Source of the DNA: a virus
IMG/VR virus record: IMGVR_UViG_3300027287_000002
Location: 62,001-126,000 of that record
Reading direction: 5' to 3' (one strand)
Length of the DNA: 64,000 nt
Below, one piece after another: positions 5,773 through 63,067 of the stretch. Below the pieces are notes generated by a model. The model made no database searches and was not told the origin of the DNA. It saw only the letters and a program-made list of their open reading frames with translations. Positions within the stretch are counted from its first letter, which is position 1. Each line of letters begins with the position of its first letter. The translations under genes and the position numbers were made by a program.

Positions 5773-5991
5773 TTATTTATCTTCTTTCTTTGGTGAGATA
5801 TATAAATCAGAATCTACAATCCAATTATTTCTGCCTACGATTTCTCTTGCTCTTGCAATCGATAATGCCATACACCTTCTAAAATTATCTTTTGTAATCA
5901 CAAGTCCAGCTCCTTCATAATTGTTTATATAATGACATAGCTTTTCATTATATTGAAACCTATTGCCACCATGATGAAACCAATATAACAT
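5773..5991 (-). CDS. Array paralog 7 (MICWF family)
   Basis: 72 residues, last member of the array. It begins MLYWFHHGGN. It keeps the family features: aromatic start, Asn near residue 10, F-R in the middle (DNFRRCMALSIARA), W-x-x-D-x-D near residue 60 and a YISPKK end. It is closest to the fifth member (both have an NNY-x-GAG segment). The start follows the previous stop by one nt in the AGATAAAATG context. No function is known. The repeated architecture indicates duplication and divergence under selection. Confidence 0.82.
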   Translation of the reverse strand: MLYWFHHGGNRFQYNEKLCHYINNYEGAGLVITKDNFRRCMALSIARAREIVGRNNWIVDSDLYISPKKEDK

Positions 5992-5992
5992 T

Positions 5993-6229
5993 TTATCTAC
6001 ATTCTTTCTTAGGTGCTAAATACACATCTGCTTGATTTATCCAAGTATGTTTTATTAAAGATTTAGATACACTTAATGCTATGCTATCTCTAAAATAATA
6101 AGGCTGTAAAAAGAAACCTTGTTTGCCACAATCATCTCTACTAGCTTTTGAAGTAATAGAACTAATAAAATACTTATATTGTGATGAGTGCATTACATCA
6201 TTTGATGATAATTCTAACCAACAAATCAT
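5993..6229 (-). CDS. Array paralog 6 (MICWF family)
   Basis: 78 residues, beginning MICWLELSSND. The middle region is the longest of the family (YKYFISSITSKASRDDCGKQ). The conserved tail (HTWINQADVYLAPKKE) closely matches members 1 and 2. Its ATG overlaps the TGA of the preceding member (ATGA), so translation is coupled. Small, soluble-looking and weakly hydrophobic. No enzyme motif is visible. Confidence 0.82.
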   Translation of the reverse strand: MICWLELSSNDVMHSSQYKYFISSITSKASRDDCGKQGFFLQPYYFRDSIALSVSKSLIKHTWINQADVYLAPKKECR

Positions 6230-6453
6230 TTCTCTTCATCCTTAATAATAGGAGCATAATATCTATCACAATTATTTATCCAAGTTCTATTTATAACATC
6301 TCTTCCTCTTGCTACATAGATAGACATATTTAATCTAAAGTTTTTCTGATCTATGTAATATCCTGAATGTCTACTAGATACACTTGATAAAAAGAAGACA
6401 TGAGAATCAATAGATGTGATGTCATTATTTGAATTTTCAAACCAACAAATCAT
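6226..6453 (-). CDS. Array paralog 5 (MICWF family)
   Basis: 75 residues. MICWFENSNND start, F-LSSVSS strand, Q-KNFR-x-N-MS in the middle, then R-TWINNCDRYYAP at the end. The tail is extended and acidic (IIKDEEK). AAAGATAAGTAAAATG forms the junction with the upstream member. The aromatic, Asn and terminal D-x-Y-x-x-P positions agree with the family, while the centre is strongly diverged. Function unknown. Confidence 0.82.
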   Translation of the reverse strand: MICWFENSNNDITSIDSHVFFLSSVSSRHSGYYIDQKNFRLNMSIYVARGRDVINRTWINNCDRYYAPIIKDEEK

Positions 6454-6458
6454 TTTAC

Positions 6459-6686
6459 TTATCTTTCTATAGTAGGTTTAAAATACATATCATTAGCACG
6501 ATGCCAATTCTCATATTTCCTAGAATCCATAAGATAACCTGTTCTCACAATATAGAAAGCTAAAGCATCTCTAAAATTAGTTTCTTTTATAGGTAATCCT
6601 GTGTTTCCAAAAGAACTTGAAGTGATTAACACAAATCGAGTATTTCTTTTCACTTCATTCGCTGACATCTCAAAACTAAAAATCAT
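6459..6686 (-). CDS. Array paralog 4, most diverged
   Basis: 75 residues, beginning MIFSFEMSANE, so the Cys-Trp pair of the other members is replaced by Phe-Ser. It keeps TNFRDALAFYIVRT in the middle and W-x-x-A-N-D-M-Y-F-K-P at the end. It is separated from its neighbours by the same short AGATAAGTAAAATG junction. It is the most divergent copy and may have specialised. Function unknown. Confidence 0.8.
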   Translation of the reverse strand: MIFSFEMSANEVKRNTRFVLITSSSFGNTGLPIKETNFRDALAFYIVRTGYLMDSRKYENWHRANDMYFKPTIER

Positions 6687-6687
6687 T

Positions 6688-6909
6688 TTACTTATCTCTC
6701 TTACATGGTGCTAAATGCACATCACAATCTTGATACCAATTTCTACCATTAGGCTGGACTAATGCTCTAACATTAAAGAAAGCTATACTCTTCCTAAATG
6801 AGTTTCCCTCCCTTATATGAAATCCTGCACCTTGATAGTTATTTACTAAGAATACTAACTCTTTATTGTATCTTACTAAATTTCCATGTGAGTGAAACCA
6901 ACAGATCAT
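6688..6909 (-). CDS. Array paralog 3 (MICWF family)
   Basis: 73 residues: MICWFHSHGN, LVFLVNNYQGAG, SFRKSIAFFNVRAL and W-YQDCDVHLAPCKRDK. Its N-terminal half is nearest to the last array member, while its C-terminal tail is nearest to members 1 and 2. That suggests a mosaic history. AAAGATAAGTAAAATGATCTG is almost identical at its start and at the start of neighbouring copies. Confidence 0.82.
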   Translation of the reverse strand: MICWFHSHGNLVRYNKELVFLVNNYQGAGFHIREGNSFRKSIAFFNVRALVQPNGRNWYQDCDVHLAPCKRDK

Positions 6910-6910
6910 T

Positions 6911-7132
6911 TTACTTATCTTTCTTACATGGTGCTAAATATACATCAGGATCGTTCATCCATGTATTTTCAGGTAAAGTCCTAGCTATAAATAAACCTAT
7001 TGTATTTCTAAACGATTCTTTATTTCTAGGATACATTCCACTAACATTAGATGATAATTTAGATGAAATAAAACATACAAGTAAAGGATTGAACTGCACA
7101 TTATTGCCATTATTATTAAACCAACAGATCAT
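6911..7132 (-). CDS. Array paralog 2 (MICWF family)
   Basis: 73 residues: MICWFNNNGN, FISSKLSSN, SFRNTIGLFIARTL and NTWMNDPDVYLAPCKKDK. An upstream in-frame TTG is possible, but GGAAAG about 8 nt before the ATG at 7132 and the array pattern fix the start. The start lies within the end of the first member (17-nt overlap in another frame), giving coupled translation. The C-terminal half is nearly identical to that of member 1. Function unknown. Confidence 0.82.
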   Translation of the reverse strand: MICWFNNNGNNVQFNPLLVCFISSKLSSNVSGMYPRNKESFRNTIGLFIARTLPENTWMNDPDVYLAPCKKDK

Positions 7133-7349
7133 TTTTTGTTCTTTCCACTGATAATGCCAAATACACATCAGGATCATTCATCCAAGTATGTTTAGGTAAA
7201 GACCTTCCTATATATAAAGAAATTGACTTCCTAAAATTATCTTTTCTTATATAGAAACCATGTTGATTGTGATATGCACTACTAAATAATGCTACTTGCC
7301 AATGATTATGACATACACAACCACCACGATTATTAAAATAACAGATCAT
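7116..7349 (-). CDS. Array paralog 1 (MICWF family)
   Basis: 77 residues, first member after the polymerase gene. MICYFNNRGGCVCHN start, KDNFRKSISLYIGRSL, then HTWMNDPDVYLA. The usual PxKKDK end is replaced by a longer tail (LSVERTKNDLLV) that runs over the next start. Its ribosome site AAAGGA lies inside the last codons of the polymerase gene, tying expression of the array to the polymerase transcript. No function can be assigned. Confidence 0.82.
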   Translation of the reverse strand: MICYFNNRGGCVCHNHWQVALFSSAYHNQHGFYIRKDNFRKSISLYIGRSLPKHTWMNDPDVYLALSVERTKNDLLV

Positions 7350-7355
7350 TTTAAT

Positions 7356-9956
7356 TTATTCCTTTAATAAGATAGATACATCTCTACCTTGATACATAAT
7401 CTTAATGTCTTTACCTGCATTATTCTTAATCCATTCGCTTAACCTGTCTGTTTCACTATGAGATAACTCACTCAACTCATAAATCTCATAATGCTTTGCT
7501 TTTTCCTCTTGCTCCGTGCTTAAGGTTGTTTCATTTAATACCTTTGGCTTTGGCTGTCCACTATGATCTACTTTAAAAGCATTTACTAAAAACTCATCTT
7601 CACCTTTGCCTTCCCTTAACTCTTTCAAGTCATAAGGCACAGACCAATCTTTTCCTATCTCAACATCCACTGTTAATGGTACAATCCAATTCTTATTTTG
7701 CAATGCTTTATTCCTAACCATAATATCACATAACAAAGGTATCGCTTCACCTATAATGTCTTTATGGATTTCAAACACAATTTCATCATGCACTGTTAAA
7801 ATCATCATTAGCTTATCAAACCAATTTCTCTTTTTAACATTCTCATAAATTAAACTCATTGCAATCTTAGTAATATCTGCACTCGTACCTTGCACAGGTG
7901 AATTTACTGCCTTTCTCTCATCCTTTGATCTCAAAGAAAACTCTTTAGATTTAATATCAGGCATTAACATTCTTCGACCAAAAGCTGTTAATACATATCC
8001 ATTTTCTTTGGCAAAATCCACTTCCTTTTTCCACCACTTTGTTAAACCTTTATATGTCTTTGTAAAGGTTTGATATTTCTCATCACCTTCTTCTTGAGTA
8101 CAACTAATAGTTCTAACTACTGCTTTACCTGTACCACCATAACATAAAGCAAAATTAACACCTTTCGCATTGCCTCTTAATGCTTTCCAATCAGGTCTTT
8201 TCTTTGCCTCTTCACCATAAAAAGCAACTGCTGTCAATGTATGCAAATCACCTATTTTATCTGATCCACATATACAGATAGCTGGTGGTATAATAGGAAA
8301 TCCATCTTCGCCTCGTTCTTTAGTATATTTACGATTGCATGATGAACATCTAAAAAATTCTTCAATCCATAAAGGCTCTTGACTAATGTTTGTTACAATT
8401 CTTAACTCAACACCTGCATAGTCAATTGCTACTAAATAATGATCAGGATTTCTTACTGCAATACACTCTCTTAATCTTGAAGTAATCATTGGTCTTTTCG
8501 GATCATATCCTGATGGAATACCTTGAAAAGGTACTCTACAACCACCATCTTTTGTCTCCCATGGTCTACTTGTAGTACCACAACTAAAACGACCTGTATC
8601 TGCTCCGAACTGATTAAACTTTGGTTTTAATGTACCATCATCTGCAATATCTTCTTTCATAGGTATGAGATATTGACCTAATGCTTTAGCTAGTTCTCTT
8701 AATCTTTTAATCTTTCTCACAAATGGAAAAGTATCGGATGCCTCTTCAATTACTTCATCTAAAACATCAGCACCTGTTGCCACTTGACCACTTGCAGTAG
8801 TTTGTAAATTAGGTACTTCTAATTCTCTAAACATCATGCCTAATTGTTGAGAAGATAAAATATCATATTTATATTCAAAGACTACTTCTTCTTTTTGTTT
8901 AGGATTAGTTAAAGATGCTACCATTTTTCTAGCTACAAAATCTTCACCTGCCATATCTAAATGTGGATACATACGATCAGCTTCTTTTCTTGCCTCGTCT
9001 ATGCAATCTTTAAAGCTATCTGTATTATCTGTATTAAACTTATTAACACCTTTTAAATCGCCTTTCATGATTTTAATGTATGCTGGCATAACATCTCTAC
9101 CAAGTAATTCATTTGCTCCTTCATATACTTCAATAAGGCTGTCCATCCATTCCTTTTGACCAATCTTAATAAACTCTTGTGTTTTCTTTTGATCAATATA
9201 AACTCTGTTTCTGTGCATCCACCTAACTGATGTATTGCATTTCTTTTCTATCATATAAAGACTAATCATTTCTTTAGGAAAGATGTCTTTTAAGATATTA
9301 TAAAGTTTAAGAGTACATAAAGCATCAGCACCTGCATACCATACACAAGCATCCCAAGACGGATCAAGAGTAGAATAATCTTTAATTTTAGATTTAGGAA
9401 TGAGTTCATCAAGTTCAATCATTTCCCAACCTAATTTATCTTTAGACATATCTTTAAGACCACGACCACCTTTATCACGACTGTTCATAAGACAAGCCAT
9501 AATATAGTTATCTTCCCATAGCTTTGGATTTTCAAATCTTTCTTTACCTAAAAGAGTTTCGCCATTATATTCTAAAAACTCTTGATCAAAAGCACCATTA
9601 TGGAATATAGGAATAGCAGTAGCATTTACATTAAGCAAGCGACTAAATTCTCTATCTATGATTGACCATGAAACATTATGTTCTGTACCTGCACTGTGTC
9701 TAATAGGAAAGTAATATGCTTTCTTTTCATTCGGAGCAATAGAAATACCTACAATAGATGCTCTTGTTCTACCATGAAAAACACGATTATCTAAACCTGT
9801 TGTTTCTAAGTCTATGCCATAATGACTAGATGCCAAACATTCATCAATAGCTTGTTTAATATTATCTTTAGTACCTAAAATGAGATCAACTTCTTTCATC
9901 CATTTTTTAGGTTTAACATCTGGTCTTTGTAGTGATTCAAAGAAATCTGAAAACAT
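7356..9956 (-). CDS. Family A DNA polymerase with 3'-5' exonuclease
   Basis: 866 residues; replicative polymerase of the Pol I family. The exonuclease domain shows DLE (49-51), HNGAFD (119-124) and Y-x-x-x-D (207-211), so all DEDDy acidic residues are present. The polymerase domain has motif A DYAGVELR (D512), O-helix R594-x-x-x-K598 with NF-x-x-x-YG, and motif C HDE (723-725). Between motifs A and B there is an inserted C-x-x-C...C-x-C cluster (537, 540, 561, 563) that probably binds zinc. About 85 extra residues follow the palm. There is no 5' nuclease domain. AAAAGG precedes the ATG. The small-protein array is expressed just downstream. Confidence 0.96.
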   Translation of the reverse strand: MFSDFFESLQRPDVKPKKWMKEVDLILGTKDNIKQAIDECLASSHYGIDLETTGLDNRVFHGRTRASIVGISIAPNEKKAYYFPIRHSAGTEHNVSWSIIDREFSRLLNVNATAIPIFHNGAFDQEFLEYNGETLLGKERFENPKLWEDNYIMACLMNSRDKGGRGLKDMSKDKLGWEMIELDELIPKSKIKDYSTLDPSWDACVWYAGADALCTLKLYNILKDIFPKEMISLYMIEKKCNTSVRWMHRNRVYIDQKKTQEFIKIGQKEWMDSLIEVYEGANELLGRDVMPAYIKIMKGDLKGVNKFNTDNTDSFKDCIDEARKEADRMYPHLDMAGEDFVARKMVASLTNPKQKEEVVFEYKYDILSSQQLGMMFRELEVPNLQTTASGQVATGADVLDEVIEEASDTFPFVRKIKRLRELAKALGQYLIPMKEDIADDGTLKPKFNQFGADTGRFSCGTTSRPWETKDGGCRVPFQGIPSGYDPKRPMITSRLRECIAVRNPDHYLVAIDYAGVELRIVTNISQEPLWIEEFFRCSSCNRKYTKERGEDGFPIIPPAICICGSDKIGDLHTLTAVAFYGEEAKKRPDWKALRGNAKGVNFALCYGGTGKAVVRTISCTQEEGDEKYQTFTKTYKGLTKWWKKEVDFAKENGYVLTAFGRRMLMPDIKSKEFSLRSKDERKAVNSPVQGTSADITKIAMSLIYENVKKRNWFDKLMMILTVHDEIVFEIHKDIIGEAIPLLCDIMVRNKALQNKNWIVPLTVDVEIGKDWSVPYDLKELREGKGEDEFLVNAFKVDHSGQPKPKVLNETTLSTEQEEKAKHYEIYELSELSHSETDRLSEWIKNNAGKDIKIMYQGRDVSILLKE

Positions 9957-10012
9957 GATTGTCCTTTTAATAAAAAGAGTTCAATCATATTATATTATAT
10001 TAAATCTTTTTT

Positions 10013-10744
10013 CTAAGTATTTTCATCCGTGTATCTATGTGCTTTAAGATTATATTGACAGCACATCTCAATACCTACATTTAAACGATTGACTTCAAAA
10101 GACATGACAATCTTTTCTAAATGTGTTTGATCAATTTTTTGTTCATCAATAACTAATTGACCTTCCCCGGGGATATTATCTATGTTTTCTTTTCTTAAAT
10201 CAATATTTGATTGAAAAACTTCATCTATAAAATCTTCAATCTTTTCATCATCAAAAAATCCTTCTTCACTTTCATCCCAACTGTCATCTTCATCTTCTTC
10301 TTCAAAACCAATGATTTGATTTTGAATTTCTTTCATCAGTTCATTTTTACCTGCATCAGTAGAAAGATCTGATTTAAGAGCAGTCAAAAGATCAGCTTGA
10401 TTACCATAATTCTTAACAGCCTTTAATAACTTTTTTGCCATGTCTGTATGCAAGATATTTCCTTGAAAGAACATTCTTGCACCAATAACACCTTCAAGTT
10501 CATATTCACCACTGTGTAATAAACTTGGTCTTGTTAAAGTTACCATACCTTTTAAATATTCTAATGGTGTTAGTGATTTAGTAGCATATACTTTTAAATT
10601 CATAATCGCATCTGCCAAAGCTGTGATTAAAGCATCTGCTACAATCTTTTCTTTATCGATTGGAATTAAATTAAAGAGATTGCTAAAAGCTAATTTGACA
10701 ATAGATGTTGGACTAGCATACTTACTGATATATGAATACTTCAT
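10013..10744 (-). CDS. Leader-bearing acidic protein, 243 aa
   Basis: Starts at the ATG at 10744 (AAAGGA six nt upstream; an in-frame TTG further upstream is less likely). The N-terminus MKYSYISKYASPTSIVKLAF has no acidic residue, like the leaders of several other proteins here. The middle carries a very acidic run (EEEDEDDSWDESEE near residue 155). No domain was recognised. A leader plus an acidic body would fit a packaged or scaffold-like protein, but this is inference. It is upstream of the polymerase in the same direction. Confidence 0.72.
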   Translation of the reverse strand: MKYSYISKYASPTSIVKLAFSNLFNLIPIDKEKIVADALITALADAIMNLKVYATKSLTPLEYLKGMVTLTRPSLLHSGEYELEGVIGARMFFQGNILHTDMAKKLLKAVKNYGNQADLLTALKSDLSTDAGKNELMKEIQNQIIGFEEEDEDDSWDESEEGFFDDEKIEDFIDEVFQSNIDLRKENIDNIPGEGQLVIDEQKIDQTHLEKIVMSFEVNRLNVGIEMCCQYNLKAHRYTDENT

Positions 10745-10810
10745 TTTAAATCCTTTGTGTTTTATCAATACAAAGGATCATACTATAGAATAATTATAAA
10801 AAACACACCT

Positions 10811-11167
10811 TTATTGATTGATATAATGCAAAATCACTTTCTTTAAAAATTCAGGTTTGGATACTAAGTTATACCATTTAAATGAATGACTTGAAAATTC
10901 ACTATATGAATAAGTACCATCATTTCTTCCAACATCTGCTATTTTTTCTTCAGTGATCACAATTTGAAGTTTAAAATTTCTACCGAAATAAATTCTATTG
11001 TCTTCACAAATGAAACTCTTTGCTTTAAGTTTATATTTCACTTGAAGATCATCAAAAGAGTTAAGAACATCACAAAGAATTTGTGCACCCTCGATACAAT
11101 AATCTTCATTGCCTTCAATTTCCCAATCGATGTTATTAAGGTCTTGAATTTTTTGATTTAAGTCCAT
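10811..11167 (-). CDS. Hypothetical protein, 118 aa
   Basis: Soluble alpha/beta-type protein (begins MDLNQKIQDLNNIDWEIEG), with an aromatic-rich end (SFKWYNLVSKPEF). AAGGA lies 8-9 nt before the ATG. It is transcribed from the promoter copy at 11198-11240, which sits between this gene and the sheath gene. No family was recognised. Its promoter class groups it with the other candidate early genes. Confidence 0.75.
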   Translation of the reverse strand: MDLNQKIQDLNNIDWEIEGNEDYCIEGAQILCDVLNSFDDLQVKYKLKAKSFICEDNRIYFGRNFKLQIVITEEKIADVGRNDGTYSYSEFSSHSFKWYNLVSKPEFLKKVILHYINQ

Positions 11168-11251: not shown

Positions 11252-14200
11252 TTATCCATTTGAACGAACATTAAATGTAAATTGAATATACAATAATGGG
11301 AATACTGGCTTGTAGAAAGCATTGATCAATAATCCTGTCGCATCTTCAGGATCTTGTACCACTGCCAAACCTGTATATGATTCAATGATGCCACTCAAAA
11401 CAAGTCTTTGAAATTCATTATTGACTGCTAATAAAACCTGTGTTTGAATCACAGGTAAATTCTTAACACCAATAAATCCATCCAAAACACCTCTCATTGT
11501 TCTTTGAACTTGATCTGCAATTTGAATGATTGTAGGTGTCTTTGTCAATACAGATGACATATTGGTTGTTAAACCATGTCTAATCTTAATGGTTGTGCCT
11601 GCATTCTCAAGAATAGAAACACCTTTAACTGCTGTTGCATTTGCCTCAACAGGTGTTAGATTTCTCAATACACCATTAAAGCCATTTACTTGTCTTGATT
11701 CCCATGGGGTAGCAACATCAATATTAATAGATGTTGTTGTACCAGCTACTGCACAAGCTAAATAGCGACCATCTACAATATAAGTAACAGGATTACCTGT
11801 TGCATTTGTGATAGTTAAACTTGCAATATCTGGATAAATAACACGAACACGACTTGAACCTGTAAGATTTGCCAAACGACCTGCTTCTTTTGGAATAGTA
11901 CCACTTGCAAAACCTAAAATCGCTGTTCTTTCAGATCTAAATCTTAATGAACTTTGTAAATCACAATGCTTGCTAATATGACTTAACAAACTTTCACTTG
12001 CAGGGATCAATGGCAAAATTACTGATGGTGTCAAAACTGCTGTAATGCCACCTTCAATAGAATCAATCGCTTCAATCATTTGTGTTTCTGTGATTTCAGC
12101 ACTACCTGCTAATCTCTTAATTTGTTTACAAGCAATTGTACCTGCACCATTCAAGATTGCAAGATAAGCACCTAATGACATAGGATTTTGTGTAGATACT
12201 TCACCATATTCAGATACAACATCTGCAATGCTATTAAATACCTTTGTTGTATAGTCTACTTTCTCTTGTGTATAAGAGATATAATAAACTTGACCAATAT
12301 CAGGTTCACTGCCACCTTTGTCAAAGGTTTCAAGATTAGCTGTATCACCTACTGAAACACCTGTTGTATTTGATACGATTACAGATACACCATTAACAAA
12401 GTTCTTTGGAATATTTGCATTACAAGTGATGTTTTGACTTACATTCCATTTAAAGAAAGCATTTGCATCTTGGGGATAATCTACACCACCATCTCTTGGC
12501 AAAATAGTGAATGTTAATCCTGTTACAGCATCTACATAGGTTTGACCAATATAACCATCTTGACCAAGACCACTATTGAAAATAGAAGTATTAGCTGAAC
12601 CTGATCCATTAGATACACTTGATTTTACATAGAAACCTTGTTTAGCATCTTCACCAACTGCACCATCTAAATTTGTAATCTTTAATCCTGTGCCTTTGGT
12701 TGTAATCGCATTGCCACCTGTGAAATCTACAATAGATCCTACACCTGTGCTTAAACTTTCAATCGCTAGATATTGCTTGTTAGTTGCACTAATATGTACA
12801 AAAGCAACAGCCTTTGATTTGAAATAGTCATTTGCAAGAGTTTCACCAAAAAGCAAATCTGTTAATGTATTTGATTGATGGCTCATTAATGCACTTACAA
12901 TTTGACTTGCATTTACACTAGATGATGTAGAGGTTTGATTTGCAGTTAAACCTAAAGTTTCATTTGCACTACCATTTAAAACTTTAAGATAACTATTTAC
13001 AAAAGATCCACCACCTACAATACGAATGCCTGCACCTTCTTGAGTAGCTACTACAATAGCATCTACACCAGCATCAGCAAAAGCATTATTGATTTGATCT
13101 ACAATAGAATTAGAGATCAAGATCAAACCATCTACAATACTCTCACCTACACAAGTTAAAGTGCCTGTGCCACTAGATGTAAATTCTACACTTACAATAG
13201 TTCCATTCACATCAAGCAATAAAGTATTATTAGCTGGATATGAGTTATTAGTACCATTATAGAATTTCACAGCTGGTTGACTGTCTGCTGTCTTTTGTTC
13301 TGTCCAACCTGTTAATAACTTTAATGTAGGTTGTTGAACGACTGCACCTTTAAGAGCAGATGCAAAACTTGCTTTTAATCCTGCCTTTGTTAATAAGCTA
13401 CCTGCTACTACACGGATACCTAACTCACCACTTGGTAAGAAATATGTATTGCCTTGAAAGAAACGATTTCTCAAAATCAATCTTTCTTTTAAAGCACCAC
13501 CACCTAGTGAAGTAGTAGCAACTTGTGCAACAGGTAAAAGACCAAATTTAGTTTGTGTACCATCTGCATCATCTGTATCAATACCTGCAATGATAGCAAA
13601 ATCATCTTCAGGATCAGCTTGGCTAATAAATTCAAGGTAACCATAGGTATCTTCATCAGCTAGAATGTGGACTACTGTGCCTGTACCACCTAAGAAAAAT
13701 CCATTATTGTTAGCAGTAAAGACAGTACCAATATTATTATCTGCACTACCTACCATTGTATAGTCTGTACCACCTACTGTTAAAATAACATAGGTATCAC
13801 CATCTACAATATCTTGAGCATCTACAATTTCAAATTTCTTGCCTAATTGATCTAAGCTAAAAATCAAACGCCCTTGTGAATTTGCAGTAACAGAAATAAT
13901 CACACCTTCAGTAACACCATCTACTTCATATTGAAGTAAAGCATCTACTAATGCACTATTGATTTGTGTTTCAAGTTCTGTTGCCAAAGCAGTAGCAGTA
14001 GAATAAACAGCATCATTTAAAGTGATTGAAATTTCGCCTACTGTTCCATTTACATTACCTACAAATTGGAAAGATAAAGTATCATGGCTGTTTGCAATAA
14101 TCTCTACACCACCATTTAAGGTAGTCATGGTTTGGTATTGAGCAGATACAGAATTACAAGCAATATTAATAGCATTTGCAATATCTGTAGCAGTACAATT

Positions 14201-53327: not shown

Positions 53328-54203
53328 ATGAAAAGAGAAATTTTAATAAAACTTGCCTGTCAAATAGCAGTACATAAAAGCATTAAATATAAAACTGCAT
53401 CACATTTAAGACAAGAACTTAATGCGACTACTTTAATACCTTTTGGCAATCAAATTGTTAAGTATGGTTCTATTAAAGGTCTTGTTGGTAAAATTAAACA
53501 AATCTATGAAGGTTTTCAAAAGATGCCAAACCTTTGGGAAAAGTTTAAAGAAAAATTAGGTATCACTGCGACTAATGTTGTTTCTCTATATAAGCAACTT
53601 AATGAAAAGTTATCTGAATATCTTGAAGAAGGTAAAAAATGGATTGATGGACATAAACAGAAACTAGCAAAAGAAAACAAGCTAATTTATTTTATGTTCT
53701 TATATGCAGAGAATGCACCTACAATAACAGGTTCTATAAAAACACTACTTGAAAAGATCAATCCTGATAATTCATCTAAGCTGTCTAAAAAACTTAAACA
53801 ATTATCAGATGGATTTGGAAACCTAAAAGACACAATAGATGAGTTCTTTAAAAAACATCCTGTTCTACATACAATCAGTATTCCTGCTAAAGCATATTTA
53901 TTTTGGATCATTTGGGTCAATGTAGCTGAAGTCAGTTGGAAAATCACAGATATTATTAAAGGTTTTCTAGGTCAAATCTCATGGGGTGATCTTTTAGAAT
54001 CACTACCTGAAAGTGGTTTAGGTTTTCTTATCCAAATCTTTATGCCTTTCATCCCAAGTGGCATGGTTGCATCTTCTTTAAAGATAGGTTGGAATGCACT
54101 GATCATCCCTGCTATGGGTATACAATTTTATTATCTGTATCAACAACACTTAATAGATGAACATGGTAAACTGATTGAAAGTGAAGTAGAGAAACTAACA
54201 TGA
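53328..54203 (+). CDS. Leader-bearing paralog 2, 291 aa
   Basis: Leader MKREILIKLACQIAVHKSIK ending YKTAS near residue 25, then LRQELNATTLIP. Middle helices include MPNLWEKFKEKLGITATN and a Lys-rich GKKWIDGHKQKLAKENK. The C-terminal 110 residues are hydrophobic and conserved with paralog 3 (AKAYLFWIIWVNVAEVSWKI; FIPSGMVASSLKIGWNALII), which could insert into membrane. It starts 3 nt after paralog 1. Combined leader and membrane-active segment would fit an ejection protein; inference only. Confidence 0.78.
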   Translation: MKREILIKLACQIAVHKSIKYKTASHLRQELNATTLIPFGNQIVKYGSIKGLVGKIKQIYEGFQKMPNLWEKFKEKLGITATNVVSLYKQLNEKLSEYLEEGKKWIDGHKQKLAKENKLIYFMFLYAENAPTITGSIKTLLEKINPDNSSKLSKKLKQLSDGFGNLKDTIDEFFKKHPVLHTISIPAKAYLFWIIWVNVAEVSWKITDIIKGFLGQISWGDLLESLPESGLGFLIQIFMPFIPSGMVASSLKIGWNALIIPAMGIQFYYLYQQHLIDEHGKLIESEVEKLT

Positions 54204-55072
54204 AATATATAAAACTTGCCTGCATACAAGCAATAAAAGAAAGTAAAAAGATAAGGACAGCTAGTGCATATCAAGTTAGAAAAGAACTTAATGCGACTAC
54301 CTTAATACCTTTTGCTAACCAAATTGTTAAACATGGTTCTCTTTTTGGACTAACAAGTAAACTCAAAGATATTTATGAAAAGTACCAAGAGCAACCACAG
54401 ATGTGGAATCTTTTTAAAAAGACTTTAGGTATTAATGCTATAGATAATGTTTCTCTATATCACCAGCTTAATGATAAATTAGCAGGATATCTTGAACAAG
54501 GTAAAGAATGGGTCAATAAGCATAAACAACAGCTATCGGAAAAAAATAAGTATTTGTACTTTATGTTCTTATATGCAGATAAAGCACCAACAGTAACAAG
54601 TTCAATAAACTATTTACTTGAAAGAGTAGATAGTGAAGAAAAGCAAATTATCATGCAGGCATTTAAAAAATACAATGGTGGTTTTAATACCTTTGCAGAA
54701 ATTATTGAAGATTTTTTTGATCATCATCCTGTTTTTGATGTCATGTCTATGCCTGCTAAAGCATATGTATTTTGGTTAGTTTGGACAAATGTAACAGAAA
54801 TAAGTTGGAAGGTTACAGATATCACTAAAGGATTTTTAGGTTTAATGTCATGGGGTGATCTTATTCGTACTTTACCTGAAACAGGTTTAGGTTTACTTAT
54901 TCAAGTATTTTGTCCTTTTATCCCAAGTGGAATGATTGCATCCTCTTTGAAGATAGGATGGAATGCTTTAATAATACCTGCTATGGGTGCTCAATTTTAT
55001 TATCTGTATCGCAGGCATTTAATAGATGAAAAAGGTAATCTAATTGAAAGTGAAGTTTTAAAATTAGAATAG
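54200..55072 (+). CDS. Leader-bearing paralog 3, 290 aa
   Basis: Leader MKYIKLACIQAIKESKKIRT ending TAS near residue 22, then VRKELNATTLIPFANQIVKH. It is closely related to paralog 2 over the whole length, including AKAYVFWLVWTNVTEISWKV and FIPSGMIASSLKIGWNALII. The ATG overlaps the previous TGA by 4 nt (coupled). Two hydrophobic segments are predicted by eye near residues 195-215 and 240-270. Function unknown; see paralog 2. Confidence 0.78.
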   Translation: MKYIKLACIQAIKESKKIRTASAYQVRKELNATTLIPFANQIVKHGSLFGLTSKLKDIYEKYQEQPQMWNLFKKTLGINAIDNVSLYHQLNDKLAGYLEQGKEWVNKHKQQLSEKNKYLYFMFLYADKAPTVTSSINYLLERVDSEEKQIIMQAFKKYNGGFNTFAEIIEDFFDHHPVFDVMSMPAKAYVFWLVWTNVTEISWKVTDITKGFLGLMSWGDLIRTLPETGLGLLIQVFCPFIPSGMIASSLKIGWNALIIPAMGAQFYYLYRRHLIDEKGNLIESEVLKLE

Positions 55073-62686: not shown

Positions 62687-63067
62687 TTAAATTTTCTCAA
62701 TCTCATTCGTAATAGATAACTTGTCTGTACGATCCATCATAAACCATTCCACACTCACAGGTTCAAATTGTGCAAACTTTGCAAACACTGTTTCTTTGTC
62801 AAATTCCTTGCATGAATATACATCCAATTGAATTAAGCCGGGCACTGCTTCATCCCACACATGAATCGCAATATGTGATGTTTCAATAATAGTCACTGCT
62901 GTTAAACCTCTATTGCCTGCCTTGTCAAGATACACAGCATGGGGTCCACTTAAAATCTTCATGTCAATCGCTTGGATCAAATCCTTTAACCATGATTCAA
63001 TCACATCTGTTGCCATAGGTGGCTTATTTACATAAGCACGGATTACAATATGTTGGTGTTGTAGCAT
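62687..63067 (-). CDS. speD: S-adenosylmethionine decarboxylase family enzyme (SpeD-like)
   Basis: 126 residues, full-length for bacterial SpeD. IIETSHIAIHVWDE near residues 61-73 holds the self-cleaving Ser (64) and His (69); the Cys in LDVYSCKEFD (86) aligns with the catalytic Cys. The residue before the Ser is Thr, where classical SpeD has Glu. SpeD makes decarboxylated AdoMet for spermidine synthesis, and some homologues instead decarboxylate ornithine or arginine. No other polyamine gene is visible here. AAAGG lies 10 nt before the ATG. Confidence 0.88.
   Translation of the reverse strand: MLQHQHIVIRAYVNKPPMATDVIESWLKDLIQAIDMKILSGPHAVYLDKAGNRGLTAVTIIETSHIAIHVWDEAVPGLIQLDVYSCKEFDKETVFAKFAQFEPVSVEWFMMDRTDKLSITNEIEKI

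Follow-up and report, generated by a model that had tools for sequence, protein, structure and literature searches.

Tandem arrays of small phage genes related to an internal segment of Type IIG-like N6-adenine methyltransferases

The array behind the DNA polymerase gene

The window analyzed here is a stretch of 64,000 nt, corresponding to positions 62,001-126,000 of a virus record of 146,708 nt (146.7 kb; IMG/VR record IMGVR_UViG_3300027287_000002, designated G000). Positions 5773-7349 of the window are occupied by seven consecutive ORFs on the minus strand, which encode proteins of 72-78 aa. The gene of an A-family DNA polymerase (7356..9956, minus strand) is located directly upstream, with 6 nt between its stop codon and the array. 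Since this leaves no room for a promoter, the polymerase gene and the array are presumably carried on one transcript. Counted from the polymerase gene, the ORFs are W1 (7116..7349, 77 aa), W2 (6911..7132, 73 aa), W3 (6688..6909, 73 aa), W4 (6459..6686, 75 aa), W5 (6226..6453, 75 aa), W6 (5993..6229, 78 aa) and W7 (5773..5991, 72 aa). The start of W2 was taken at 7132; a further in-frame ATG lies upstream at 7177, within W1. Genes 1 and 2 overlap by 17 nt and genes 5 and 6 by 4 nt, while the remaining genes are separated by 1-5 nt.

All 21 pairwise alignments of the seven proteins scored above shuffled controls (z 7-32), and chance similarity was ruled out by these shuffles together with reciprocal HMM searches. 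The proteins therefore form one family, with conserved ends and a variable center. This confirmed the tandem array described in the original prediction, including its start-to-start spacing of 217-238 nt. Two of the predicted details were overstated: the junctions, described as nearly identical, contain the exact sequence AGATAAGTAAAATG at only three of the seven starts, and the proposed MICWF start is exact in three genes, the others beginning with MICYF, MIFSF, MICWL or MLYWF.

Four of the genes have clear orthologues in a related record, G004. The omega values obtained for W3 (orthologue R4; 0.10), W4 (R2; 0.15), W5 (R3; 0.13) and W7 (R8; 0.07) span 0.07-0.15, compared to 0.044 for the polymerase and 0.14 for the methyltransferases of G000 and G005 described below. 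The array orthologues are thus under purifying selection. These values and the absence of stop codons rule out decay of the copies, and the dN/dS check upholds the claim of an intact, diversifying multi-copy array. The paralogues are 38-65% identical, with omega of 0.23-0.91 at high dS; because dS is near saturation, we do not claim positive selection among them.

Members at other sites and in other phages

The seven genes are merely part of a larger set. Twelve further members were found 43-49 kb away in the same record, outside the window (G000:C1 20,075-24,854), beside the gene of a 520-aa methyltransferase (G000:C1:24851-26413, equivalent to L012:8852-10414), which brings the total for G000 to 19. 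Eight of the twelve lie directly behind the methyltransferase gene and four more about 2 kb further on. Between the two blocks is a gene (L012:6232-6504, plus strand) whose product we take to be a GroES-like co-chaperonin.

Three IMG/VR records (G001-G003) gave the same seven matches as the window, with the same scores. In G004 (L011), whose polymerase is 98% identical as a protein, eleven genes are present at the polymerase site. The 316-kb record G005 (L048) carries two members at this site, seven directly behind a 519-aa methyltransferase gene, and three between genes that, by our own reading of the sequences, encode a DnaB-type helicase and a CHC2-type primase. In G000 the helicase and primase genes are adjacent, with no insert, and represent an empty site. 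Counting copies in related phages, a check proposed in the original prediction, showed that their number varies at all three sites: 7, 11 and 2 behind the polymerase gene, 12 and 7 behind the methyltransferase gene, and 0 and 3 between the helicase and primase genes.

In total, 42 distinct phage members were collected; the seven members of the window alone were too diverged to serve as the query for a collection scan. The scans revealed no phages with arrays beyond G000-G005, and tblastn searches of 50,697 phage records with the array consensus, the phage methyltransferase and a bacterial relative found none. The closest polymerase in the phage collection (47.5%) is that of LR745208, a 485-kb uncultured phage, in which neither arrays nor the enzyme were found. 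The enzyme and the arrays were seen together in two records only (G000 and G005), the other array records being fragments in which the enzyme is not seen; their co-occurrence is consistent, on few genomes. The 195-kb near-identical record G002, which has no methyltransferase gene, was considered as counter-evidence and set aside, as the position of its array puts the enzyme side beyond the record, judging from coordinates.

Some G004 paralogues have exact DNA stretches of 22-27 nt in common, longer than any obtained in codon shuffles, which hints at recent duplication or conversion. One G005 member (L057:7045-7341, minus strand) is internally duplicated (ENNFRESVDLYIARNRDIYENNFRRAI), which records recombination between members. 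In both phages the methyltransferase-side array is adjoined by genes for proteins of 370-399 aa composed of repeated helix-turn-helix units (L012:2351-3463 and L012:5019-6218, plus strand; L057:4671-5819, plus strand), possibly regulators of the arrays or mobile passengers. The polymerase gene of LR745208.1 (L063) is broken at two places, by stretches of ~1.1 kb (9860-10956) and ~1.3 kb (11261-12600) that may be introns or inteins.

Relationship to an internal segment of N6-adenine methyltransferases

Pfam, PHROGs and PDB sequence searches with the array members gave no credible match, and no match was obtained when a single 73-aa model was compared with the PDB by Foldseek, such a piece being too small to be informative. 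Relatives of the phage methyltransferase were identified on 14 plasmid records, the fully read ones being 795-895 aa long, and a GTDB scan yielded at least 539. An HMM of the array matched an internal stretch in all seven plasmid relatives tested (E 8e-21 to 1.8e-8), and did not match either of the two phage enzymes. Among the best 80 of the at least 539 GTDB relatives, the segment was internal in 79, the remaining one being cut by a contig end, and the fetched flanks of these 80 contained no stand-alone copy.

In the opposite direction, an HMM built from the bacterial segments alone was run against 1,464 ORFs (duplicates of no member counted); every one of the 42 phage members was matched at E<=0.1, and no other ORF. 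The E values for W1 to W7 were 2.6e-18, 2.5e-13, 1.5e-6, 5.9e-8, 1.7e-13, 2.3e-13 and 2.5e-8, and the seven alone, aligned with the bacterial profile by hhalign, gave a probability of 98.8% (E 1.2e-16). Similarity to the internal segment is therefore significant both ways and, as judged from these profile comparisons, the array members are stand-alone copies of an internal segment of about 70 aa from gamma-class N6-adenine methyltransferases with a Type IIG layout. The statement that no described family shows this pattern has to be withdrawn, since the homology exists and is missed by Pfam and PHROGs. The original prediction had also named a profile match to a family of known function as grounds for giving it up; such a match was found as far as homology is concerned, and the outcome is more specific than the role that had been guessed.

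An AlphaFold2 model of W2, made from a 60-row alignment (pLDDT 81), consists of a strand, a helix, two strands and a long helix. The order of these elements matches the internal segment (590-645) in a model of L080, a full-length relative from Clostridium yunnanense; this structural match is not fully independent, because the W2 alignment took in bacterial segments. Two other identities were rejected. A complete recognition domain of the HsdS or Type 1 1/2 S-subunit kind (about 150-200 aa, with dimerization helices) does not fit members of 69-98 aa with one long helix in the model, and an acidic DNA-mimic anti-restriction protein (Ocr-like) does not fit members that are basic, with a median pI of 9.1 and a net charge of 0 to +7.

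The phage members retain seven residues (N, S, N, R, W, D and P) that hardly vary among the bacterial enzymes, and an Arg after N-F, present in 41 of 42 members, is phage-specific. This Arg, the basic charge and the location of two of the three array loci in replication operons would suit small DNA-binding or structural proteins exapted for a role independent of the methyltransferase, at the replisome for instance. We regard such an origin as very unlikely, given that retention of the bacterial positions is expected if the docking place is unchanged, and that in each of the two phages the gapped enzyme is immediately followed by a large array.

The AlphaFold2 model of L080 (pLDDT 88) matched DrdV, BpuSI, LlaBIII, BrxX, MmeI, M.BseCI, CamA and M.TaqI, i.e., structures of the Type IIG, BREX and TaqI types. 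Whole-chain TM-scores were low (0.2-0.4), and therefore the fold class and the order of the domains are supported by these matches, whereas finer details are not. The catalytic domain precedes the recognition domain in enzymes of this type (PMC3874165, PMC11842806), and the segment corresponds to residues ~590-660 of L080, beyond the catalytic fold. A variability profile of the bacterial enzymes, based on 589 pairs whose catalytic parts are at least 72% identical, showed an identity of only 0.40-0.55 for residues 521-640 and a recovery to ~0.75 from 641, with a second, shorter dip at 401-440, in the catalytic part. The excised piece therefore comprises the second half of the longest variable block and a conserved anchor (W, N, D, P). 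The segment thus overlaps the hypervariable block of the target-recognition region, the part that probably reads DNA sequence; indirectly, this overlap suggests that the array proteins may act as specificity determinants.

The conserved anchor also suggests a common docking role, and half of the variable block stays in the phage enzyme. Both observations would be compatible with partners that switch a split methyltransferase on or off, or that set its dose, stability or location, leaving the sequence that is read unchanged; the diversity of the array would then reflect drift and dosage. We consider this unlikely. Orthologues are kept distinct under purifying selection, the paralogues have diverged to the extent given above, and dosage does not explain why the segment takes in the most variable ~60 residues of the bacterial recognition region.

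The phage methyltransferase and a proposed role for the array

Both phage enzymes carry the SAM-binding motif I (VWDCCSGSGNL or VWDCCSGTGNL) and the catalytic NPPY at position 138, and their alignment with relatives places them among gamma-class N6-adenine methyltransferases. The 520-aa enzyme had no match in Pfam or PADLOC; for the methyltransferases as a group, PADLOC, NCBIfam and Pfam gave weak methyltransferase matches at best, and the PDB profile search was likewise weak. An additional domain at the N-terminus of the plasmid relatives contains an invariant E-x-K and Q (E62, K64, Q81), as in PD-(D/E)xK nucleases, and these relatives therefore look like Type IIG enzymes, which are gamma-methyltransferases with N-terminal cleavage domains (PMC3874165). 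The phage enzyme begins ~270-300 residues later than its relatives, without this cleavage domain, and in the alignment it is devoid of ~70 aa after residue ~330, so that its recognition region is not unbroken. The 520-aa protein was accordingly rejected as a Type IIG enzyme.

Aligned with its relatives, the phage enzyme is missing exactly the segment that the arrays encode, while ~60 residues of the most variable block remain in it. Between the two phage enzymes, this retained half of the block is 88.6% identical and the catalytic part 83%, and the lowest conservation (54%) is seen in the short junction present in place of the segment. In the phages, variation has moved from the enzyme to the arrays.

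Other arrangements were observed in two virus records. L158 encodes an unsplit form, a single chain of 836 aa with a much diverged segment. In L159 (1039-3015 and 3003-3509, minus strand) the segment is internal and the nuclease part is on a separate ORF in a different frame, which represents either another split form or a frameshift.

Free copies of the segment might also serve as decoys that insert themselves into the recognition region of host Type IIG enzymes from this family, or compete for a place there, and poison restriction, with one copy per host enzyme. The enzyme family is widespread in bacteria and on plasmids, and the turnover of the arrays between phages fits an arms race. However, host enzymes hold the segment covalently, and a free copy would have to displace the attached one. 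The members are not acidic DNA mimics, and decoys leave unexplained why the phage's own enzyme is without exactly this segment. For these reasons we find decoys quite unlikely. The missing piece is directly explained by dosage partners and by a split enzyme that is completed in trans; the diversity of the array is explained only by the latter.

We consider it probable that the phage enzyme is a split methyltransferase for which a library of specificity pieces, representing the excised middle part of its target-recognition region, is provided in trans. Its ancestor would have been a Type IIG-type enzyme with nuclease, methyltransferase and recognition domain in one chain, which lost the nuclease and from whose recognition region ~70 aa were removed. 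This piece would have become a free gene that was copied and diversified, its descendants now residing in the polymerase operon, beside the methyltransferase gene and, in the relative, between the helicase and primase genes. Most likely, array proteins bind singly to the constant catalytic chain of 520 aa. The bound protein would restore the recognition fold, and its variable strands and loops would help to choose the DNA sequence to be methylated. Given that a single genome holds at least 19 variants, one methylase could mark phage DNA at several motifs and thereby protect it from diverse host restriction enzymes. The comparisons establish the homology and the excision of the segment; complementation by physical association in trans, changed specificity and protection from restriction are what we infer. 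The location of two of the three array loci far from the methyltransferase gene counts against a split enzyme.

We lean slightly toward a broader picture, in which one constant adenine methylase is combined with a plug-in library of ~12-19 fragments at up to three loci, many motifs are methylated at once in each infected cell, and the protected set is adjusted to the restriction repertoires of hosts as fragments are gained, lost and recombined. The counter-defense role suggested in the original prediction is plausible and would now take a specific form, that of specificity pieces for the phage methyltransferase.

Split methyltransferases and systems with separate M and S chains are already known; the chemistry and the source family are familiar, and the arrangement is not. 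Type IIG enzymes (of the Eco57I, BpuSI, DrdV and MmeI kind), the source family, share the gamma-class adenine methyltransferase fold followed by the recognition region, and they contain the array segment internally. In the known ones a single chain carries an N-terminal nuclease and the whole recognition domain, whereas here the nuclease is gone and a ~70-aa piece comes from many genes. Catalytic and specificity chains are separate in the Type 1 1/2 enzymes (M.AhdI, M.BsaBI) and in Type I HsdM/HsdS (PMC3874165). Their S subunits are, however, whole recognition domains with dimerization helices, while here a 72-aa fragment alone is separate, in 12-19 variants, and the remainder is kept in the enzyme. 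In Type I systems, one M subunit can be served by different S subunits. In natural or artificial split methyltransferases (M.EcoHK31I; split M.SssI and M.HhaI; PMC3404938, PMC3439449), a catalytic chain that is inactive alone is reactivated by a fragment bound in trans, as proposed here. These are cytosine enzymes with one fragment each and without a library of alternatives. The multispecific cytosine methyltransferases of phages SPR, phi3T and SPbeta carry several recognition units that shield DNA from several restriction enzymes; their units are few and in one chain, unlike the many separate genes and the adenine class found here. A many-to-one library of sub-domain fragments serving one gapped methyltransferase in trans was not found among the openly accessible journal papers searched.

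If correct, the proposed split enzyme would be a naturally modular methylase, retargeted by exchanging a part of ~72 residues, and a nanopore or PacBio methylome could read this out directly. It would assign a definite function to one class of the anonymous arrays of small genes in huge phages, explain how a phage meets many restriction systems with little DNA, and make fragment-level specificity engineering of Type IIG-like enzymes testable.

Two further features of the window were observed. Another tandem family is located at 53328-55072 (plus strand), where two adjacent proteins of ~290 aa (53328-54203 and 54200-55072) are clearly alike and are preceded by a third gene of similar size. A gene at 62687-63067 (minus strand) encodes a protein that, by our own reading, resembles S-adenosylmethionine decarboxylase (SpeD).
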